From assembly GCA_031266315.1 (NCBI GenBank), contig JAISBG010000240.1, positions 1 through 10,498 of the forward strand: a DNA stretch of 10,498 nt. Reading direction: 5' to 3'. This stretch comes from Planctomycetaceae bacterium. Its GTDB lineage: Bacteria > Planctomycetota > Planctomycetia > Pirellulales > Thermoguttaceae. Numbering within the stretch: the first letter of the stretch is position 1; every line of letters begins with the position of its first letter. Made by a program: the position numbers and the translations under genes. Below the pieces are notes generated by a model. The model was not told the origin of the DNA. It was given only the letters and a program-made list of their open reading frames with translations, and did not search any database. This document shows, in pieces, positions 2,339 to 10,498 of the stretch.

Positions 2339-2380
2339 TTAAGTTTAATGTAATTTTTTGCCGATTCCATTGGATTAACG

Positions 2381-2577
2381 GTTGCCCACCTCAAAAATGC
2401 CAAGCGCGGTGGGCTATTTATCAAAAGTTTCGCTGAAAGGTCACGTCGGTGATAGCTGACTGTGAATCTGATTAACAATGGAAAACTATGTTGCCTTCCA
2501 TTTTGGAGTCAATAACGACTCAACCGGCGCGACCCTTCAGCGAAGGGATCGCCCACCTGATGATTGCCTCCCTTTAA
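2381..2577. repeat. Family-1 structured repeat, composite copy
   Basis: The segment fills most of the gap between the permease stop and the oligopeptidase promoter. It has several parts. GCCCACC (2384-2390) pairs with GGTGGGC (2408-2414). A degenerate copy of hairpin 1 follows (TTTCGCTGAAAGGT), then hairpin 2 (2445-2460, GTCGGTGATAGCTGAC), whose stem is held by two G-U pairs, and the tail TGTGAATCTGATTAAC. A type-II copy on the other strand has its stem at 2529-2552 (11/10 bp, one bulge, GCT loop), and GAGTC/GACTC at 2507-2519 can form a second stem. It ends in GCCCACCTGATGATTGC and CTTTAAC, the same flank as at 4373-4400. Confidence 0.75.
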
Positions 2578-2592
2578 CTATTGGTAGGAGAC

Positions 2593-2610
2593 ACCTAATC
2601 CGGTAGAATC
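2593..2610 (-). repeat. 18-bp intergenic repeat, copy 1
   Basis: The minus strand reads GATTCTACCGGATTAGGT, identical to plus-strand 4870-4887. The bases on its 5' side are also alike (CAATCTTT here, CAATCT there). It lies 15-33 bp downstream of the permease stop codon, just outside the family-1 repeat. Confidence 0.6.
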
Positions 2611-2625
2611 AAAGATTGACGTTTT

Positions 2626-4089
2626 TTAGATTGGCAGAGTGGTCAACGGGAGTAATTGTGACAGAATCAAAACAATGAGGAGACCGGAAAATCCCAATAA
2701 AATGAGTCCGATTGTCCATGTTTTCAGTGCGTCCGTTTCACGAATACCGCCCATGCGGCAGAAAATCCAAAAACCGCTGTCGTTCATCCAACCGGTAACA
2801 CAAGAACCAAGACCAATTGTTACGGCAAGATATGCCGGATGGAACGGTAATACGGTAGAATCTTTTACTATTCCGGCAAAAATTCCGGCGGAAGTAATCA
2901 TGGCAACCGTGCTGGAACCTTGTGCTGTTTTGATTATTGCTGTAACCGCAAATGATAAAAGCAGCAAGGAAATTCCAGTCAAGGCGGTTTCGTCCTGAAA
3001 ACATTCTTCAATCCGTTCACCAATTCGTGCCGCACGAAGCATTGCCCCAAACGCACCGCCTGCCGACGTAATCAAAATAATCATTCCGGCACTGAAAATT
3101 GCTGTTTCGATTCGGTTGCTTAATTCCTGCAATGAAAATTTACGGACATGAGACAATACACCAATACTGATAATTGCCGCAATAATCAATGCCATTTGCG
3201 GATCACCCAAAAGCCGGCAAAGATTTTTGACAACAAGCCAATCGTCATTCCAAACAAGAACTTTCGATTTATCGAGCATTTCAAGTACCGATTGCAAAGA
3301 AATGAGAAAAACCGGAACAAGAATCGGCGCAAATGACCAAAATAACGAAGGAGAAGGATTGGTTTCAGAAATCGTTGAAGTCTGATATTTCTGATGTTCC
3401 GGTTCTGTATTTTCGTGTTCTTGTTTCGTATTTTCGGGTTCATCTTCAAAATGGACATCAGGACAAGGCAGCAAGCGGTTCATTAAAAAAGCAATTCCAA
3501 GTGCAAACGGAGCCGTCAAGGCTGCGACAAAAAGTGAAACAATTAAAAGTGATCCCAAAGGAATGTTCAATGTTGCTGCCGCGATTACCGGAGCGGGTGC
3601 CGGCGGCGTCAAGGTGTGAGTTAATGTTGCGCCAAGTCCGATTGATAAAAGATAAAGAATGTAATTCTTCTTCATCATTTTATAAAGAGAACGGGCAATC
3701 GGAACAAGTAAATAAAATGTTGTATCATAAAAAATCGGAATCGACAAAATGAAACCGCTGGTCAAAAGTGCAGCCGGTATTAGTTTTTCTCCGAAAAGGC
3801 GGCGAAGCATTGTAACGATTCGGTCGGCACTGCCGCTGTCGAGCATACATTTTCCGATAATCGCTCCCATTGCAATAAGAATACTGATATTTCCGGCAGT
3901 TGTTCCGAATGCCAAACAGAGTTCTTTGATATGATTGTCCCAAAATTGTCCGGGTTTAAGAGGTGTCATAAAACTCACAAGCATTGCCGCCGCAAGGAGT
4001 GACAGAAAAGCGTTCACCCGCAAAAAAACCACCAATCCGACTACCGTCAGAATTCCAAACAAAAGAATAAGCAACGGATCAATCATCAT
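2626..4089 (-). CDS. GntP-family permease (gluconate / sugar-acid:H+ symporter)
   Basis: The 487-residue product is an inner-membrane protein of about 12-14 hydrophobic segments, matching the GntP family, which imports gluconate and related sugar acids with protons. Motifs follow the family order: IAMGAIIGKCMLDSGSADRI (72-91), SIPIFYDTTFYLLVP (116-130), THTLTPPAPAP (157-167), KTAQGSSTVAMITSAG (387-402) and MNDSGFW (435-441). Differences from well-known members are PPAPAP where the usual form is PPHPGP, and a hydrophilic Glu-rich central loop (about 206-246) containing an imperfect repeat (ENTKQEH, ENTEPEH). The actual substrate cannot be read from sequence. Two ATGs open the frame (4089, 4086); no clear Shine-Dalgarno sequence precedes them. 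A family-1 repeat starts 40 bp upstream of the start codon and could lie in its leader or promoter. No sugar-acid kinase or regulator is adjacent. Confidence 0.9.
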   Translation of the reverse strand: MMIDPLLILLFGILTVVGLVVFLRVNAFLSLLAAAMLVSFMTPLKPGQFWDNHIKELCLAFGTTAGNISILIAMGAIIGKCMLDSGSADRIVTMLRRLFGEKLIPAALLTSGFILSIPIFYDTTFYLLVPIARSLYKMMKKNYILYLLSIGLGATLTHTLTPPAPAPVIAAATLNIPLGSLLIVSLFVAALTAPFALGIAFLMNRLLPCPDVHFEDEPENTKQEHENTEPEHQKYQTSTISETNPSPSLFWSFAPILVPVFLISLQSVLEMLDKSKVLVWNDDWLVVKNLCRLLGDPQMALIIAAIISIGVLSHVRKFSLQELSNRIETAIFSAGMIILITSAGGAFGAMLRAARIGERIEECFQDETALTGISLLLLSFAVTAIIKTAQGSSTVAMITSAGIFAGIVKDSTVLPFHPAYLAVTIGLGSCVTGWMNDSGFWIFCRMGGIRETDALKTWTIGLILLGFSGLLIVLILSQLLPLTTLPI

Positions 4090-4120
4090 AAAAATAAATC
4101 GAAATAGGGGTAATAAGGTA

Positions 4121-4390
4121 GCAATCTGAGGTGGGCAATGTTTCGCTGAAACATTGCGTCGGCGATAGCCGACTTGTCCCTGTTAACGGCTGGCAATTTG
4201 ATTCCAAAACCATTGGCAACACTAATTGCCGTCGTTAGTCTAATTCACAGTCGGCGAAAATAGGTGGGCGATCCCTTCGCTGAAGGGTCGCGCCGGTTGA
4301 GTCATCATTTTGCCGGAGTTAATCTGATTCACAGTCGGCGAGTACGCCGACGCAACCTTTCAGCGAAAGGTTGCCCACCTGATGATTGCT
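4121..4390. repeat. Family-1 structured repeat, complete inverted composite
   Basis: This is the most complete copy. Its ends are inverted: GCAATCTGAGGTGGGCAA at the left and TTGCCCACCTGATGATTGC at the right. The left half (plus strand) has hairpin 1 at 4135-4157 (10-bp perfect stem GCAATGTTTC/GAAACATTGC, loop GCT) and hairpin 2 at 4158-4173 (GTCGGC-GATA-GCCGAC). The right half (minus strand) has hairpin 1 at 4374-4352 (GCAACCTTTC/GAAAGGTTGC, loop GCT) and hairpin 2 at 4351-4334 (7-bp stem). A type-II unit sits in the middle at 4262-4302 (stem GCGATCCCTTC/GAAGGGTCGC). Segment 4181-4224 is duplicated at 4950-4993. No transposase or convincing target-site duplication is visible. Confidence 0.8.
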
Positions 4391-4645
4391 TACTTTTAAC
4401 AAATAACAAAAATTCCGCATGTGAACTCTCCACTATCAACTCTCCACTAATGTTTTGCGTTTAACTCTGCATGAAGACGTTCAATAGCAATCCTCCATTT
4501 GAAAGGGAGGCGAAAAACATTCCTGAATAGTCATAAATCGTGTTGACCAAAGGAATTAAATTTGTTATTCGTCTTTCCACCGTAGTGATCATTAAATAAT
4601 TTTAGTGGTTATGGTTGTTTGTTTTTGGGGGTAAAACCCAAAAAA
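4391..4645. other. Intergenic stretch with no supported gene
   Basis: I see no credible gene here; the open frames are short, lack ribosome-binding sites and match nothing recognisable. Minor structure: ACTCTCCACTA occurs twice (about 4424-4448), and CCTCC/GGAGG (4492-4510) could form a weak stem. TTGACC (4543-4548) followed 17 bp later by TATTCG would be only a poor promoter pointing at the 21-bp array. Confidence 0.5.
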
Positions 4646-4663
4646 AGCACGAGAGATTTTTTT

Positions 4664-4847
4664 ATTTCCCGTGAAATTTTTTTTATCTCCCGTGAAATAG
4701 TTTTCATTTCTCGTGAAATGGAGTCTGTTTCTCGTGATTTTTGCCTAATTTTTCTCGTGAAAAGGGGTTCACTTCTCGTGAAACAGGTTTTATTTCTCGT
4801 GAAATAGAAAAAATCTCCCGTGAAATAAAAAAAATCTCCCGTGTAGT
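4664..4847. repeat. Nine-unit array of 14-bp near-palindromes at 21-bp period
   Basis: Units start at 4664, 4685, 4706, 4727, 4750, 4771, 4792, 4813 and 4834. The typical unit is ATTTCTCGTGAAAT: 5-bp inverted arms ATTTC/GAAAT around TCGT. Seven of eight steps are exactly 21 bp; the step between units 4 and 5 is 23. The outer units (1, 2, 8, 9) carry CCCGTG and the inner five CTCGTG. Spacers are not conserved beyond being T- or A-rich. Twenty-one bp is both seven codons and two helical turns: in one frame it reads as a heptad such as FISREIF, with the 2-bp extra step breaking that frame. A further degenerate ACGAGAGAT lies at 4649-4657. Function is unknown. Confidence 0.85.
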
Positions 4848-4869
4848 TTCCGCGTTATTGAATCAATCT

Positions 4870-4887
4870 GATTCTACCGGATTAGGT
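4870..4887 (+). repeat. 18-bp intergenic repeat, copy 2
   Basis: GATTCTACCGGATTAGGT is an exact match to the minus strand of 2593-2610. It follows directly after the 21-bp array. The two copies lie near family-1 material in both places, so this may be an outlying module of that family. Confidence 0.6.
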
Positions 4888-4949
4888 TTTTTCCACCGGA
4901 ACAATCAAATAATTGTAATATCTCATCGGCGATCATCAAGTAGGCAATC

Positions 4950-4993
4950 TGTTAATGGCTGGCAATTTGATTCCAAAACAGTTGGCAATATAC
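4950..4993 (+). repeat. 44-bp duplicate of a family-1 internal segment
   Basis: This segment matches 4181-4224 at 40 of 44 bases, including the uninterrupted GGCTGGCAATTTGATTCC. Here it is flanked by TCATCGGCGATCATC on the left, a possible remnant of hairpin 2, but it lacks the head and hairpin-1 modules. Confidence 0.7.
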
Positions 4994-5001
4994 TACTTGG
5001 C

Positions 5002-5036
5002 GGTATTTAACCGACCCAAAGAGTCGGTTAAATACC
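5002..5036. repeat. Perfect 14-bp stem-loop downstream of the DUF4912 gene
   Basis: GGTATTTAACCGAC (5002-5015) and GTCGGTTAAATACC (5023-5036) are exact reverse complements around a 7-nt loop (CCAAAGA). It lies 53 bp beyond the DUF4912 stop codon and would form in that gene's 3' RNA. It lacks a T-run on either strand, so it is not a textbook intrinsic terminator; it may instead stabilise or process the 3' end. AGTCGGTTAAATA, part of the right arm, recurs at 7883-7895 downstream of the PDZ gene. Confidence 0.7.
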
Positions 5037-5089
5037 TGTTAAATAGTTCTAACATTCCCGTGTGCGCGACCAGCGCAACCGCCGGACGA

Positions 5090-6511
5090 TTAATCGTCAT
5101 CGGCTGGTTCTTGAAAGAGTGTTTCGAGAATCCGGGTGTTTCGTTCAATAGTTAGAATGGCGCGTTGTGTTTCCACGCCGTCACTTCCTTCCGCTTCCAT
5201 TGGAAAGACGTGCCGTTTTTCGGGAAGCACGAAACGAACCCCAAAAGAACCGTCCGGTTGAACTTTGATCGGTTCATTCCGAATTGTTACCTGAACACTT
5301 GGGTCTGTCTTACCGTGAACAATAACATCAACATCAATATTAAAAAGAAAATTCCGACGTGTTTTTTCTGAATTTACTCCTTGATGTTGTGAAGCACGGT
5401 AACGTGAAAGAAGCGGAGCCGACATGGGACGATGTAATTGTTCCTCAAATATTTTTTTGAGTTCCTGATTATTGCTGTCGCCGCCGCTTAATTTGTAAAT
5501 CCGCCCCAAATCTTCCGCCACACCGCGCCAATTGCCGTCAAGATTATCCAGCTCGTCGATAACCTGTTGCTGGGGAGTTTCAACGGTGTTGCTGGAAACG
5601 AGAGAATAAAATTTCTTTTCCCGCGAGATATAACCAAGTTCAATCTGAAACGCCGAAGGCGGATCCACCACATCCAAATACCAGTTATTCACACCGCCAT
5701 GAATCAGAATATCACGAACAAACAACCGTTTCGGTTGTGACATTCCGTCGGATTCCAAACGGAAAAGGCGAATTATCGGCAAGGACGTATGCCAGAACAT
5801 ACCCAAAGCAACTTTGGCACGTTCTACGGTTCGGGCTGTTATTTCCCAAAAAGCGTGAAGCCAAAATGAATCCCGAACCAACAAAACAAGCCGATCCGTT
5901 CGTCCTTCATCGGAGTGTGTGCTAATATCGCGCCGGAGTTTTTTCCGATATTGAGAGGCAATTCCTTGATCTTTGCGAGGTTCTACGGCAACCAAAACGG
6001 TGTTTTGTTTTCGTGGAATTTCTTTTTTAACATCCTTTTTAGCCTCTTTCGTATTGGATGTGGAGGAAGCGGATTTTGTGGGCGGTGTTTTGCGGGAAGG
6101 TTTAGAATTAGAAGAATGAGAAGAATTAGAAGAAAGTGTTTCGGCAAGTGGTTGTTTTGGGGACGGTTTTGAAGGTGATTTGGGTAATGGTTTTGGTAAC
6201 GGTTTGGGAGACGGTTTCGAGGAAGGCGAAACTGTTTTTTTCACTTCTGTTTTCTTTTTATTTTCAACTTTCTTTTTTTCTACTGTTTTCTTTTTTTCTG
6301 GTGTTGAACTGGGTTTGGATGCTGTTGTTTTTTCCAGTTTGGCAAGTCGCGGCAAAATCAGTTCCCGACCGATTTTGGTGCGTGCTTTTAGTGCCAAAGC
6401 ATTGATGAGTTCATCTTTGCGCATTTTGTGCCAACTGAAAACAGAAAGTTCTTTCGCAAGAGCCCCTAATTCTTTGGCTGTCAATAAATTAAGTTTTGTC
6501 GAAATTGTCAC
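5090..6511 (-). CDS. DUF4912 domain protein with Rho-N/SAP-like head and long basic linker
   Basis: The product has 473 residues. Residues about 7-45 (LLTAKELGALAKELSVFSWH, then KMRKDELINAL) look like a Rho-N/SAP-type helical domain, a fold often linked to nucleic-acid binding. Residues about 60-170 are low-complexity: Lys-rich, then Pro-Lys repeats (PKPLPKPLPK), then Ser-rich. Residues about 205-314 match DUF4912 (DRLVLLVRDSFWLHAFWE, NNWYLDV, IELGYIS, SNTVETP). Residues about 385-458 (DVIVHGKTDP...PDGSFGVRFVLP) are the beta-rich C-terminal region commonly seen in these proteins. No signal peptide or membrane segment is visible, so it is probably cytoplasmic. Its function is unknown. The start is GTG, chosen because GGAGA (6517-6521) precedes it at 5-nt spacing; an upstream ATG is out of frame. 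It is divergent from the PDZ gene. Confidence 0.88.
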   Translation of the reverse strand: MTISTKLNLLTAKELGALAKELSVFSWHKMRKDELINALALKARTKIGRELILPRLAKLEKTTASKPSSTPEKKKTVEKKKVENKKKTEVKKTVSPSSKPSPKPLPKPLPKSPSKPSPKQPLAETLSSNSSHSSNSKPSRKTPPTKSASSTSNTKEAKKDVKKEIPRKQNTVLVAVEPRKDQGIASQYRKKLRRDISTHSDEGRTDRLVLLVRDSFWLHAFWEITARTVERAKVALGMFWHTSLPIIRLFRLESDGMSQPKRLFVRDILIHGGVNNWYLDVVDPPSAFQIELGYISREKKFYSLVSSNTVETPQQQVIDELDNLDGNWRGVAEDLGRIYKLSGGDSNNQELKKIFEEQLHRPMSAPLLSRYRASQHQGVNSEKTRRNFLFNIDVDVIVHGKTDPSVQVTIRNEPIKVQPDGSFGVRFVLPEKRHVFPMEAEGSDGVETQRAILTIERNTRILETLFQEPADDD

Positions 6512-6612
6512 GACGATCTCCGCTCCATTAAGTTGGCAGTATTGATAACCCTATCGGTTACGCTGTTAAAACAGGCTAAAAACCCAAAATAGCAAGAATA
6601 ACCAAAACAAAC

Positions 6613-6618
6613 ATTATA
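6613..6618 (-). promoter_or_regulatory. Consensus -10 box possibly serving the DUF4912 gene
   Basis: The minus strand reads TATAAT exactly, about 100 bp before the GTG start. No good -35 box lies 16-18 bp upstream, so the call rests on the -10 alone in AT-rich DNA. Confidence 0.3.
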
Positions 6619-6758
6619 CGCTAATTAAGGATTTTAAAAATGAACTTTGATAATATACCAAAAAAAGAAAGAAAAACAACTATCCGCTCTCCATTGTTTT
6701 TAAAATAATCCTAAATCCCGATAATGGAATTAAAAATTTGTAAAGATAAGGCGTTCAT

Positions 6759-6802
6759 AGGTGGGCAACCTTGGTGGGGGCTTACCTTTTGGTTGCCTGC
6801 CT
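6759..6802. repeat. Short family-1 remnant
   Basis: The head AGGTGGGCAACC (6759-6770) and an inverted partner GGTTGCCTGCCT (6791-6802), followed by TTAAC, are retained. GCAACC/GGTTGC can pair around a 20-nt spacer. The GCT-loop hairpin and hairpin 2 are absent. Confidence 0.55.
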
Positions 6803-6840
6803 TTAACGGAAATTCTATTGAAAAATTACCAAAAAAATTT

Positions 6841-6870
6841 TTGAACAATTTTTTTCGTTTATCGTAATAT
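6841..6870 (+). promoter_or_regulatory. Possible promoter of the PDZ gene
   Basis: TTGAAC (6841-6846) and TAATAT (6865-6870) are 18 bp apart and 80 bp upstream of the ATG. Each box matches four of six sigma70 consensus bases, and the region is AT-rich throughout, so chance is a real alternative. Confidence 0.25.
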
Positions 6871-6950
6871 CGTTTAATGGAAAAAAAGGTCGGAAGGTCT
6901 GACCTTTGCGAAAAATCCGAATCTTCAATATTTATTTTGAGAGCAAAAAA

Positions 6951-7838
6951 ATGAAAACGCCTAGAAAATCAATCGTAAAATTGTTTTTGGGAATGGTCAT
7001 CTTAATATTATCGGCTTGGTTTCTTTACGCCGACGCCGAAAATAAGGGGACGCAAAGTCCGCCGGAACCCGACCAAAATACAACCACTCTCGCTCCGGCT
7101 TCTTTTTGGATCGGTGTTCAGGTTGCCCCTGTTCCCGATATTTTTCTTTCCCATTTCGGAGCAAAAAAAGAAAATTCCAGCAGAGTTGTTGTTGAACAAG
7201 TTGTTGCCGACAGTCCGGCGGCTCAATCCGGTTTGAAACGCGGAGATGTGATTCTTCAATTCGCCGGAAAAGAAATCAATACGCTTCATGATTTGGTTGG
7301 TCAAGTTTCCGAAGCAAAAGAAACAACAAAACCAATTCAAATTATTCGCGATGGAGCAAAAGTTGACCTAAACATTACACCTGCACCGCGTCCGGCGGAA
7401 TCAATGGCGGTACAAGGAAATCCGATGTTTCGCGGTCGTTCGATGATGCCCCAACCGTTGTTGCCGCCGCCCGGAATGAAGTTGGGACCGGATGTTTGGA
7501 TTGGTCCGCGTGACCCGCAAAAAATGATGCGCGAAATGGAAGAGTATTTCCGTCAAATGCAAGGCGGCGTCGATAGTGATCAACTCTTGATTTTGCCGGA
7601 ACAGGACGAGCAACAGGCGAAAACGTCTTCACCTCTTTTATCTTCCTCTTCAGGAAAACAGATTTCCGTTTCTTCTGTTACCGATAAGGACGGCAAGACG
7701 AAAATTCGTGTCAAGCAATTTCTGAAATCAGGTGATTCCACGGAGGAAAAAAATTGGGAAGCCGAAAATATTGACGATCTTCCCGAAGAAATTCGCAACG
7801 AAGTTAAAACGTTGTTGGGCGGTTCTATTCCCGGTTAG
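6951..7838 (+). CDS. Membrane-anchored or periplasmic PDZ-domain protein
   Basis: The 295-residue product has a basic N-terminus (MKTPRKSIVK) and a hydrophobic segment (about 11-26). ADA at 27-29 could be a signal-peptidase site, so the rest is probably extracytoplasmic. Residues about 52-145 form a PDZ domain (IGVQVAP, then VVADSPAAQSGLKRGDVILQ and INTLHDLVGQV), a peptide-binding module. The middle (146-205) is rich in Pro and Met; the C-terminus (about 237-290) is a compact region (ISVSSVTDKDGKTKIRVKQF, DDLPEEIRNEVKTLL). No trypsin-like protease domain is present, so this is not a complete DegP/HtrA enzyme; it may be an adaptor or scaffold, partner unknown. The start at 6951 is preferred over an in-frame TTG at 6906 because GAGAG (6939-6943) precedes it and the signal sequence then begins normally. 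It faces the POT gene, with 393 bp between stops. Confidence 0.88.
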   Translation: MKTPRKSIVKLFLGMVILILSAWFLYADAENKGTQSPPEPDQNTTTLAPASFWIGVQVAPVPDIFLSHFGAKKENSSRVVVEQVVADSPAAQSGLKRGDVILQFAGKEINTLHDLVGQVSEAKETTKPIQIIRDGAKVDLNITPAPRPAESMAVQGNPMFRGRSMMPQPLLPPPGMKLGPDVWIGPRDPQKMMREMEEYFRQMQGGVDSDQLLILPEQDEQQAKTSSPLLSSSSGKQISVSSVTDKDGKTKIRVKQFLKSGDSTEEKNWEAENIDDLPEEIRNEVKTLLGGSIPG

Positions 7839-7905: not shown

Positions 7906-8134
7906 CAGTAGGATTGCTAGTTTTCCTCCGCCCTGCAAGGGCAATGCGTAACAACCCACCGCAACGCGGTGGGTAACAGCCCTTCCCCAACAATCGCCCT
8001 GAAAGGGCAGCGCAAAACGAATTGGCATTGCCCTTTCAGGGCGAAATTGAAGGGTGAGCTTTAACCCACCGCGTTGCGGTGGGTTGTTATGCAATGCCCC
8101 TAAAGGGGCGGAGGAAAAACTTGCAATCCTACTG
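7906..8134. repeat. Family-2 palindromic element (229 bp) between convergent genes
   Basis: The ends are a perfect 12-bp inverted repeat, CAGTAGGATTGC (7906-7917) and GCAATCCTACTG (8123-8134). The two halves, roughly 105-110 bp each, are near reverse complements, so the whole element can fold into one long hairpin. Nested hairpins: GCCCT/AGGGC (7930-7942), ACCCACCGC/GCGGTGGGT (7954-7974), GCCCT/AGGGC (7996-8008 and 8030-8042), ACCCACCGC/GCGGTGGGT (8064-8084) and GCCCC/GGGGC (8096-8109). No convincing target duplication or transposase was seen, so it resembles a MITE or REP/BIME-type element. It separates the PDZ and POT genes, where it could act as a transcription barrier for both. Confidence 0.85.
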
Positions 8135-10415: not shown

Positions 10416-10498
10416 AGGTAGGCAACCGTTTGCAGGCAGACAATCTTTTGTAGGTGGGCAACCTGTTAATAGAGGTGGGCGACCTTTCGCTGAAAGGT
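10416..10498 (+). repeat. Family-1 repeat, start of a copy cut by the window end
   Basis: Three heads follow each other: AGGTAGGCAACC (10416-10427), AGGTGGGCAACC (10452-10463) and AGGTGGGCGACC (10473-10484). The last leads into hairpin 1, GCGACCTTTC-GCT-GAAAGGT (10479-10498), whose final bases are beyond the window. The stem differs from those at 4135, 4268 and 4352 but pairing is kept in all visible positions. Confidence 0.7.

Follow-up and report, generated by a model that had tools for sequence, protein, structure and literature searches.

What are the hairpins that recur between the genes of an uncultured planctomycete: structured RNAs, or repeats that move? The question is raised by a window of 10,498 nt (the whole stretch of DNA analyzed; GenBank assembly GCA_031266315.1, contig JAISBG010000240.1), in which a sequence-only reading had noted intergenic hairpins whose stem arms change together around a constant loop. 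Our data indicate that the hairpins are a very abundant family of short paired REP-like repeats between genes of a planctomycete group. The interpretation we hold to be reasonably probable is that of a REP family of the GTAG type (tag GTGG here) in head-to-head dimers, i.e., REPIN-like miniature elements multiplying, or recently multiplying, in one planctomycete genus. It draws directly on the anatomy, copy number, stem covariation, dimers, mostly intergenic place, concentration in one genus, and lack of a target-site duplication.

Anatomy of the hairpin units

Each unit consists of an unpaired AGGTGG tag, a 10-bp stem (GCRACCTTTC) closed by a 3-nt loop, and a second hairpin (GTCGGC...GCCGAC). 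The window holds a composite element of three units, an older dimer, a unit cut by the contig end, and solo heads (Table 1). All the stems named by the sequence-only reading were recovered there, together with a copy of hairpin 2 with two G-U (G-T) pairs. The motif AGGTGGGC occurs in the window 11 times at ≤1 mismatch against 3.99 expected (0 of 200 shuffles as high). The composite element folds as RNA at −126.7 kcal/mol (z −10.4).

Table 1. Hairpin elements in the window (positions are those of the window; bits, covariance model)
Feature	Position	Strand	Details
B-type unit facing decayed unit 2407-2460	2527-2558	-	Model 32.3 bits
Decayed unit	2407-2460	+	Tag CGGTGG, damaged hairpin 1; model 20.8 bits, E 0.003
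Hairpin 2 of decayed unit	2445-2460		GTCGGT-GATA-GCTGAC, two G-T pairs
Head-to-head dimer, 152 bp	2407-2558		Decayed unit + B-type unit; older than composite 4129-4380
Solo head, no hairpin	2380-2391	-	AGGTGGGCAACC
Repeated flank modules outside dimer 2407-2558	2559-2611	-	Head-like piece, then partial CTGATTCTACCGG... module
Composite element, 252 bp	4129-4380	.	C-end + B + A-end units; tags outward at both ends
C-end unit	4129-4173	+	Tag AGGTGG 4129-4134, hairpin 1 4135-4157, hairpin 2 4158-4173; model 71.7 bits
Hairpin 1 of C-end unit	4135-4157	+	GCAATGTTTC-GCT-GAAACATTGC
A-B dimer, 119 bp	4262-4380		Inside composite element 4129-4380
B-type unit	4262-4291	+	Tag 4262-4267, hairpin 1 4268-4291 with one unpaired T, then CGCCGGTTGAGTC
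B-type unit, model match	4262-4339	+	37.3 bits
B stem	4268-4291 and 2529-2552	+ and -	GCGATCCCTTC/GAAGGGTCGC
A-end unit	4334-4380	-	Tag 4375-4380, hairpin 1 4352-4374, hairpin 2 4334-4351; model 70.0 bits
Hairpin 1 of A-end unit	4352-4374	-	Stem GCAACCTTTC/GAAAGGTTGC
Solo head, no hairpin	6759-6770	+	AGGTGGGCAACC
Two stacked tag-like heads upstream of cut unit	10416-10462	+	Begin at 10416 and 10452
Unit cut by contig end	10473-10498	+	Model 37.7 bits, 3′ part missing; cut stem 10479-10498

The loop is indeed GCT in the window and in the units of its own genome, but its supposed constancy ends there, GCC being found in sister genome G013 and, mostly, in G014. An unpaired GTAG-type motif is present at one stem end, as GTGG in most units of the own genome and as GTAG in G014, where the tag reads AGGTAG (seven of the eight listed heads are AGGTAGGC, one is CGGTAGGC). 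The third stem had been placed correctly but needs one correction: B-type units, which run into CGCCGGTTGAGTC, carry an unpaired T in the stem (GCGA-T-CCCTTC). Since this T was found in 37/37 B copies tested (41 found; 4 of other length left out), B represents a distinct end type with a bulged T, the A and C ends having perfect stems.

Parts of units also occur alone. A headless half B-type unit (GAAGGGTCGCACCGGTTGAGT...) lies at 78-110, where the prolyl oligopeptidase gene has its 3′ end. No hairpin unit is present at 4869-4988, where flank module (i) precedes an isolated fragment of the C-end interior (CTGTTAATGGCTGGCAATTTGATTCC).

Stem covariation

The alignment used for covariation comprised 75 distinct units from three genomes, after removal by eye of 7 of 82 distinct candidate rows with a false anchor or a longer loop (two of these rows, both from L029, do form hairpins, though longer in the loop). 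In the 75 rows, 98.9% of the cells were paired versus 91.3% upon shuffling, and two-sided changes affected 97 cells versus 25.8 (0/500 shuffles as high), where the shuffles ignore relatedness and one inherited stem change counts once per copy carrying it. Such changes were seen at 9 of the 16 pairs and at 7 of the 10 pairs of hairpin 1; with the partner slid by 1 to 3 columns, pairing fell from 98.9% to ≤65.6%.

Many loci had been fetched with a core pattern that itself specifies some stem positions (150 of 187 units match that core), and the control therefore lies in pairs 11 to 13, fixed by no search pattern, and in the units off the core. Pairs 11 to 13 were all Watson-Crick in 176/187 units (shuffled mean, 86.0; maximum, 102) and in all 37 off-core units (shuffled, 16.6; maximum, 27), 26 of which had the ten pairs (shuffled, 7.7; maximum, 16), so the covariation holds. 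All ten stem pairs were Watson-Crick in 159 of the 187 units, a figure that the search core favors, and these stems comprise 15 distinct sequences of 10 bp each. Among the A/C units of the own genome found by head plus hairpin 2, 99 of the 104 of usual length (9 of 113, of other lengths, were excluded) paired at all eight inner pairs tested, with G-T allowed (shuffled mean, 42.3; maximum, 57), as did 20 of the 25 distinct stems (shuffled, 7.4; maximum, 14); of 37 B stems, 33 had Watson-Crick pairing throughout the eight pairs tested (shuffled, 9.9; maximum, 19). Stem covariation exceeds what column make-up alone would give, and the claim that both arms change together is borne out.

The earlier inference that G-U pairs favor RNA is not supported in that form. 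On the head strand, the 75 rows have 27 G-T versus 9 A-C cells, and distinct single-mismatch stems have 13 versus 4 (P = 0.049). This excess hints weakly that the strand being read is the one on which the tag precedes the stem, and single-stranded DNA read by a HUH enzyme predicts the same.

Head-to-head dimers

The arrangement of the units was analyzed in the window plus 40 contigs of its own genome (284,185 bases), where the covariance model finds 154 units at E ≤0.01; 39 of the 40 contigs were chosen for a listed core match and one (C697) for its Y1 gene, which biases density upward. Among the best 150 of the 154 units, neighbors ≤300 bp apart (n = 68) were head-to-head in 55 cases, head-to-tail in 10, and tail-to-tail in 3 (binomial P = 6e-22 for head-to-head against one quarter). 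The head-to-head spans cluster at 117 to 124, 142 to 150, and 153 to 181 bp, with preferred values of about 119, 145, and 167 bp. Fifty-six loci from other genomes gave 43, 5, and 10, respectively (n = 58; one head-to-head pair is counted twice, L148 repeating part of L094). Single units made up 29 of 82 clusters, 10 of them ≤200 bp from a contig end.

Local pairs exceeded cross pairs between the two ends in 18 A/C dimers of the own genome (283/288 versus 209/288 cells) and in two dimers from G013 and G014, one of them doubtful (25/32 versus 16/32). The unit hairpin is therefore what is kept, even though the best fold for the strand of an entire dimer is a single long hairpin. Doublets had fewer unpaired arms than singlets (0.28 versus 1.09 per unit), a measure with which the distance to common sequences disagrees (1.53 versus 0.95; P = 0.77). 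In L058, positions 5394-5749 hold two nearly identical tandem dimers, 18 bp apart, overlapping the end of a called gene.

The inverted ends and fixed spans would also suit a MITE moved by a DDE transposase via terminal inverted repeats. We consider this very improbable, because the two ends carried unlike stems in 18/18 dimers of the own genome (raw count), each end pairing with itself, and because no direct repeat of ≥3 nt above shuffled pairs was found beside 68 isolated dimers (lengths 2 to 9, offsets 0 to 2). Direct repeats of 2 nt numbered 8 versus 3.4 expected (shuffled maximum, 10).

The REPIN-like reading would account for these features as follows. When the element is single stranded, the strand carrying the tag on the 5′ side of its stem would fold into hairpin 1, and tag plus stem would be read by a HUH single-strand nuclease acting in trans. 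The dimer would be copied or moved as a unit, with no duplication of the target. Compensatory stem changes would persist if what counts is the tag, the loop, and the pairing rather than the identity of the stem letters, and copies would survive where they are least harmful, i.e., between genes and beyond stop codons. The family is probably mobile, which, like the single-stranded intermediate and the HUH enzyme, we infer.

Position relative to genes

In the window, no gene contains a unit; the neighboring genes encode a prolyl oligopeptidase, a GntP permease, a DUF4912 protein, a PDZ protein, and a POT transporter. The intergenic location noted there extends to the sample, in which, with genes called by a simple purpose-made caller, 56 of the 57 clusters that could be judged lay between genes. 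Of all 82 clusters, 1 was mostly inside a called gene, 25 were at contig edges (not among the 57), and 33, 16, and 7 were in co-directional, convergent, and divergent gaps; by a stricter measure on another unit list, 4/82 overlapped a called gene by >15 bp. A cluster was present in 15 of 22 convergent, 32 of 90 co-directional, and 6 of 17 divergent gaps, and 23 of the 33 co-directional clusters were closer to the upstream stop.

The location of clusters close to stop codons and within convergent gaps, the covariation with more G-T than A-C on the tag strand, and the stable folding are what would be expected if the hairpins were kept mainly as RNA elements at message 3′ ends, blocking exonucleases or being cut by RNases, with their spread secondary. 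We regard this as unlikely. A dimer holds both orientations, so that a transcript carries one of its units as the reverse strand, and an RNA stabilizer needs no unpaired tag, yet the tag is kept (the alignment selected for it, but nearly all tags are GTAG or GTGG). Intrinsic terminators are not in excess (1 found at 4050-5100 versus 1.3 expected). The comparison with Rfam proposed by the sequence-only reading returned no family at gathering score in the window, the match of 4100-4420 to mir-1468 being sub-threshold (36.1 bits; cut-off, 95), and the spread within one genus is patchy and dialect-like. The family is also a caution against taking covariation of this kind in intergenic DNA for a new riboswitch or small RNA.

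The flanks are themselves repetitive. Head-like sequences lie ≤32 nt upstream of 58 of 138 units (2/138 in a control slot), and the regions outside the heads contain stacked heads and repeated modules that recur, in some cases on either side, with their order inverted. The intergenic region of the composite element also holds, at 4644-4844, an array of TTTCTCGTGAAAT-like units with 21-nt spacing, partly an inverted repeat.

Copy number and distribution

Collecting copies genome-wide, as the sequence-only reading had advised, took the family far beyond the window. The core pattern AGGTGGGCRANNNTTCGCTGAA matched 720 places at ≤3 mismatches in the own genome, a metagenome-assembled genome (MAG) of 4,235,414 bases in 883 contigs that is 65.8% complete, and the reversed pattern matched none. 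At ≤2 mismatches there were 585 matches in the own genome; among 20 sister genomes, 34 to 273 in 9, 1 to 4 in 3, and none in 8. Outside the genus, 19 of 59 genomes had 1 to 3 (total, 28 versus 5 for the reversed control). The covariance model, for which about 150 candidates per genome were scored so that unit counts per genome are lower bounds, found units among the candidates listed in 16 of 21 genus genomes and none in 5; three of the carriers (G001, G006, and G007) had been missed or almost missed by the pattern. Among the matches listed in public records, a stricter exact motif identified at least 65 stretches from nine "Planctomycetaceae bacterium" MAGs, whose source samples we take to be termite gut. 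Viral contigs gave 0 exact matches to a 29-position pattern of the family, and blastn of 4129-4380 against plasmid and phage collections (E 0.001) gave no match.

High copy numbers were seen in one genus only, in which the family forms species dialects and is absent from some species. The dialects suggest amplification after the species split. The REP population of this uncultured planctomycete genus is dense, and related species that carry the family, lack it, or carry another form a natural series in which to follow how such repeats originate, expand, and disappear. One genome lacking the family, G009, contains a different abundant palindrome-like repeat, around AACAACGTGAAGCGGTTGTT, at a density of about 25 places per 100 kb (59 kb on 7 contigs, L201 to L207).

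Search for a transposase partner

No RAYT-type Y1 transposase flanked by hairpin repeats was found at the own Y1 gene or at 25 sister Y1 loci (24 of the 26 proteins extracted; 150-nt flanks inspected by eye). In the own genome a single Y1 gene was found; it scores above the cut-off for the IS200 family, and its 8.45-kb contig (C697) holds no hairpin unit; no Y1 gene was found in the repeat-rich sister genomes G013, G005, and G008. Of the sister loci, only L109 had a covariance model match, one unit about 1 kb from the gene, and L119 had two pattern matches. Ten Y1 proteins were scanned: 7 pass the IS200 cut-off and none passes REP_Tyr_transpos (best, 57.9 of 80 bits). Called genes with a unit ≤300 nt away on both sides numbered 16/380, and the 10 of these that were scanned matched no transposase family.

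The Y1 genes seen are mostly IS200-like, and their flanking palindromes, where present, are of other families. One such family, CGACCCCTTRYGGGGTCG with AATATTTAT, lies beside an IS200-like Y1 gene in both the own contig C697 (L081, 8017-8420) and G012 (L116, 1901-2118), the two genes belonging to the same cluster. Eight of its palindromes lie within about 500 bp on the 5′ side of the own Y1 gene, versus 8 in the other 275,735 bases sampled, and its pattern has 27 places in the own genome, 21 in G012, and ≤2 in each of the other 19 genus genomes. The method is therefore able to see Y1-palindrome pairing. MAGs are incomplete and break at repeats, which makes the absence of a partner weak evidence, as a partner could be hidden. 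In L052, a dimer at 541-910 has copies of this second family inserted inside.

No excision or empty site was found in the synteny and flank BLAST comparisons. In 8 sister genomes the two neighbor genes were absent beside GntP, leaving no empty site readable, and BLAST of the flanks gave no clean empty site, the flanks being repeats themselves. This, together with the lack of a RAYT beside the repeats and of clearly better conservation in doublets than in singlets, counts against the REPIN-like reading.

Two other explanations start from the missing partner. According to one, the REP population is old and no longer mobile: the transposase that spread it has been lost, and the copies are decaying. 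Solo heads, mosaics with other repeats, and decayed units such as 2407-2460 are in keeping with it, but the 159/187 units with ten Watson-Crick pairs (favored by the search core) and the species dialects, suggestive of amplification after the split, make it rather improbable, more so than conservation as RNA. The other, about as unlikely as the RNA explanation, is an orphan REPIN-like population in which several hundred paired hairpins would amplify with no dedicated Y1 REP transposase, some other enzyme of host or mobile origin moving them, and with the perfect-stem and bulged-T ends as distinct left and right ends. The missing transposase makes the family a test case for whether REPs need a dedicated RAYT.

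Relationship to known REPs

The sequence-only reading had no named family to offer, but the anatomy is that of the GTAG-tagged REPs as described by Di Nocera et al. 2013 (PMC3733652), whose hosts include Planctomycetes and for which GTGG is a reported tag variant, found in most O. terrae GTAG-20 elements. Shared features are an unpaired GTAG-type tag beside a short perfect stem, complementary stem variants with G-T pairs, unlike stems in the two partners, and head-to-head dimers with structured spacers, set in longer palindromes (as are A. variabilis GTAG-15 dimers) beyond gene ends; the 10-bp stem, with complementary variants among copies, fits the REP range of 6 to 13 bp. Unlike them, the planctomycete family has its own stem, loop, second hairpin, and stacked upstream heads and no adjoining RAYT; the comparison with the families in Figure 1 of that paper is by description, not by sequence. 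REPINs with RAYTs (Bertels and Rainey 2011, PMC3116915) similarly show strongly overrepresented inverted doublets with fixed spacing, compensatory changes, and a mostly intergenic place. The differences are that here no RAYT was found, doublets are not clearly better conserved than singlets, and dimers are longer (about 119 to 180 bp versus spacings of 71 and 110 bp).

Because tag, stem, copy number, place, and doublets are as in GTAG-type REPs and REPINs, we file the hairpins as a new GTAG-kind REP family working like REPINs, no enzyme partner having been found among the Y1 genes examined. In the literature surveyed, no description of this planctomycete family was seen. Tag plus hairpin also recalls the TnpA-REP substrates of E. 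coli and others (Corneloup et al. 2021, PMC8266576). Known REPs are there either perfect or bulged, in contrast to the perfect (A/C) and bulged (B) ends in one dimer here; if the orphan population were real, one element would combine both known styles of REP recognition. Enterobacterial BIME mosaics, likewise composed of inverted hairpin units and linkers, sometimes with repeated inner modules, are similar in layout (PMC8266576). In L072, positions 6586-6971 hold inverted hairpin units with repeated inner modules.

The window also contains palindromes of another kind, GCCCTGAAAGGGC and CCCACCGC..GCGGTGGG, which make up a long inverted repeat at 7906-8107 and 1-41. GC-rich palindromes resembling these, as judged by eye, flank several IS200-like Y1 genes in sister genomes.
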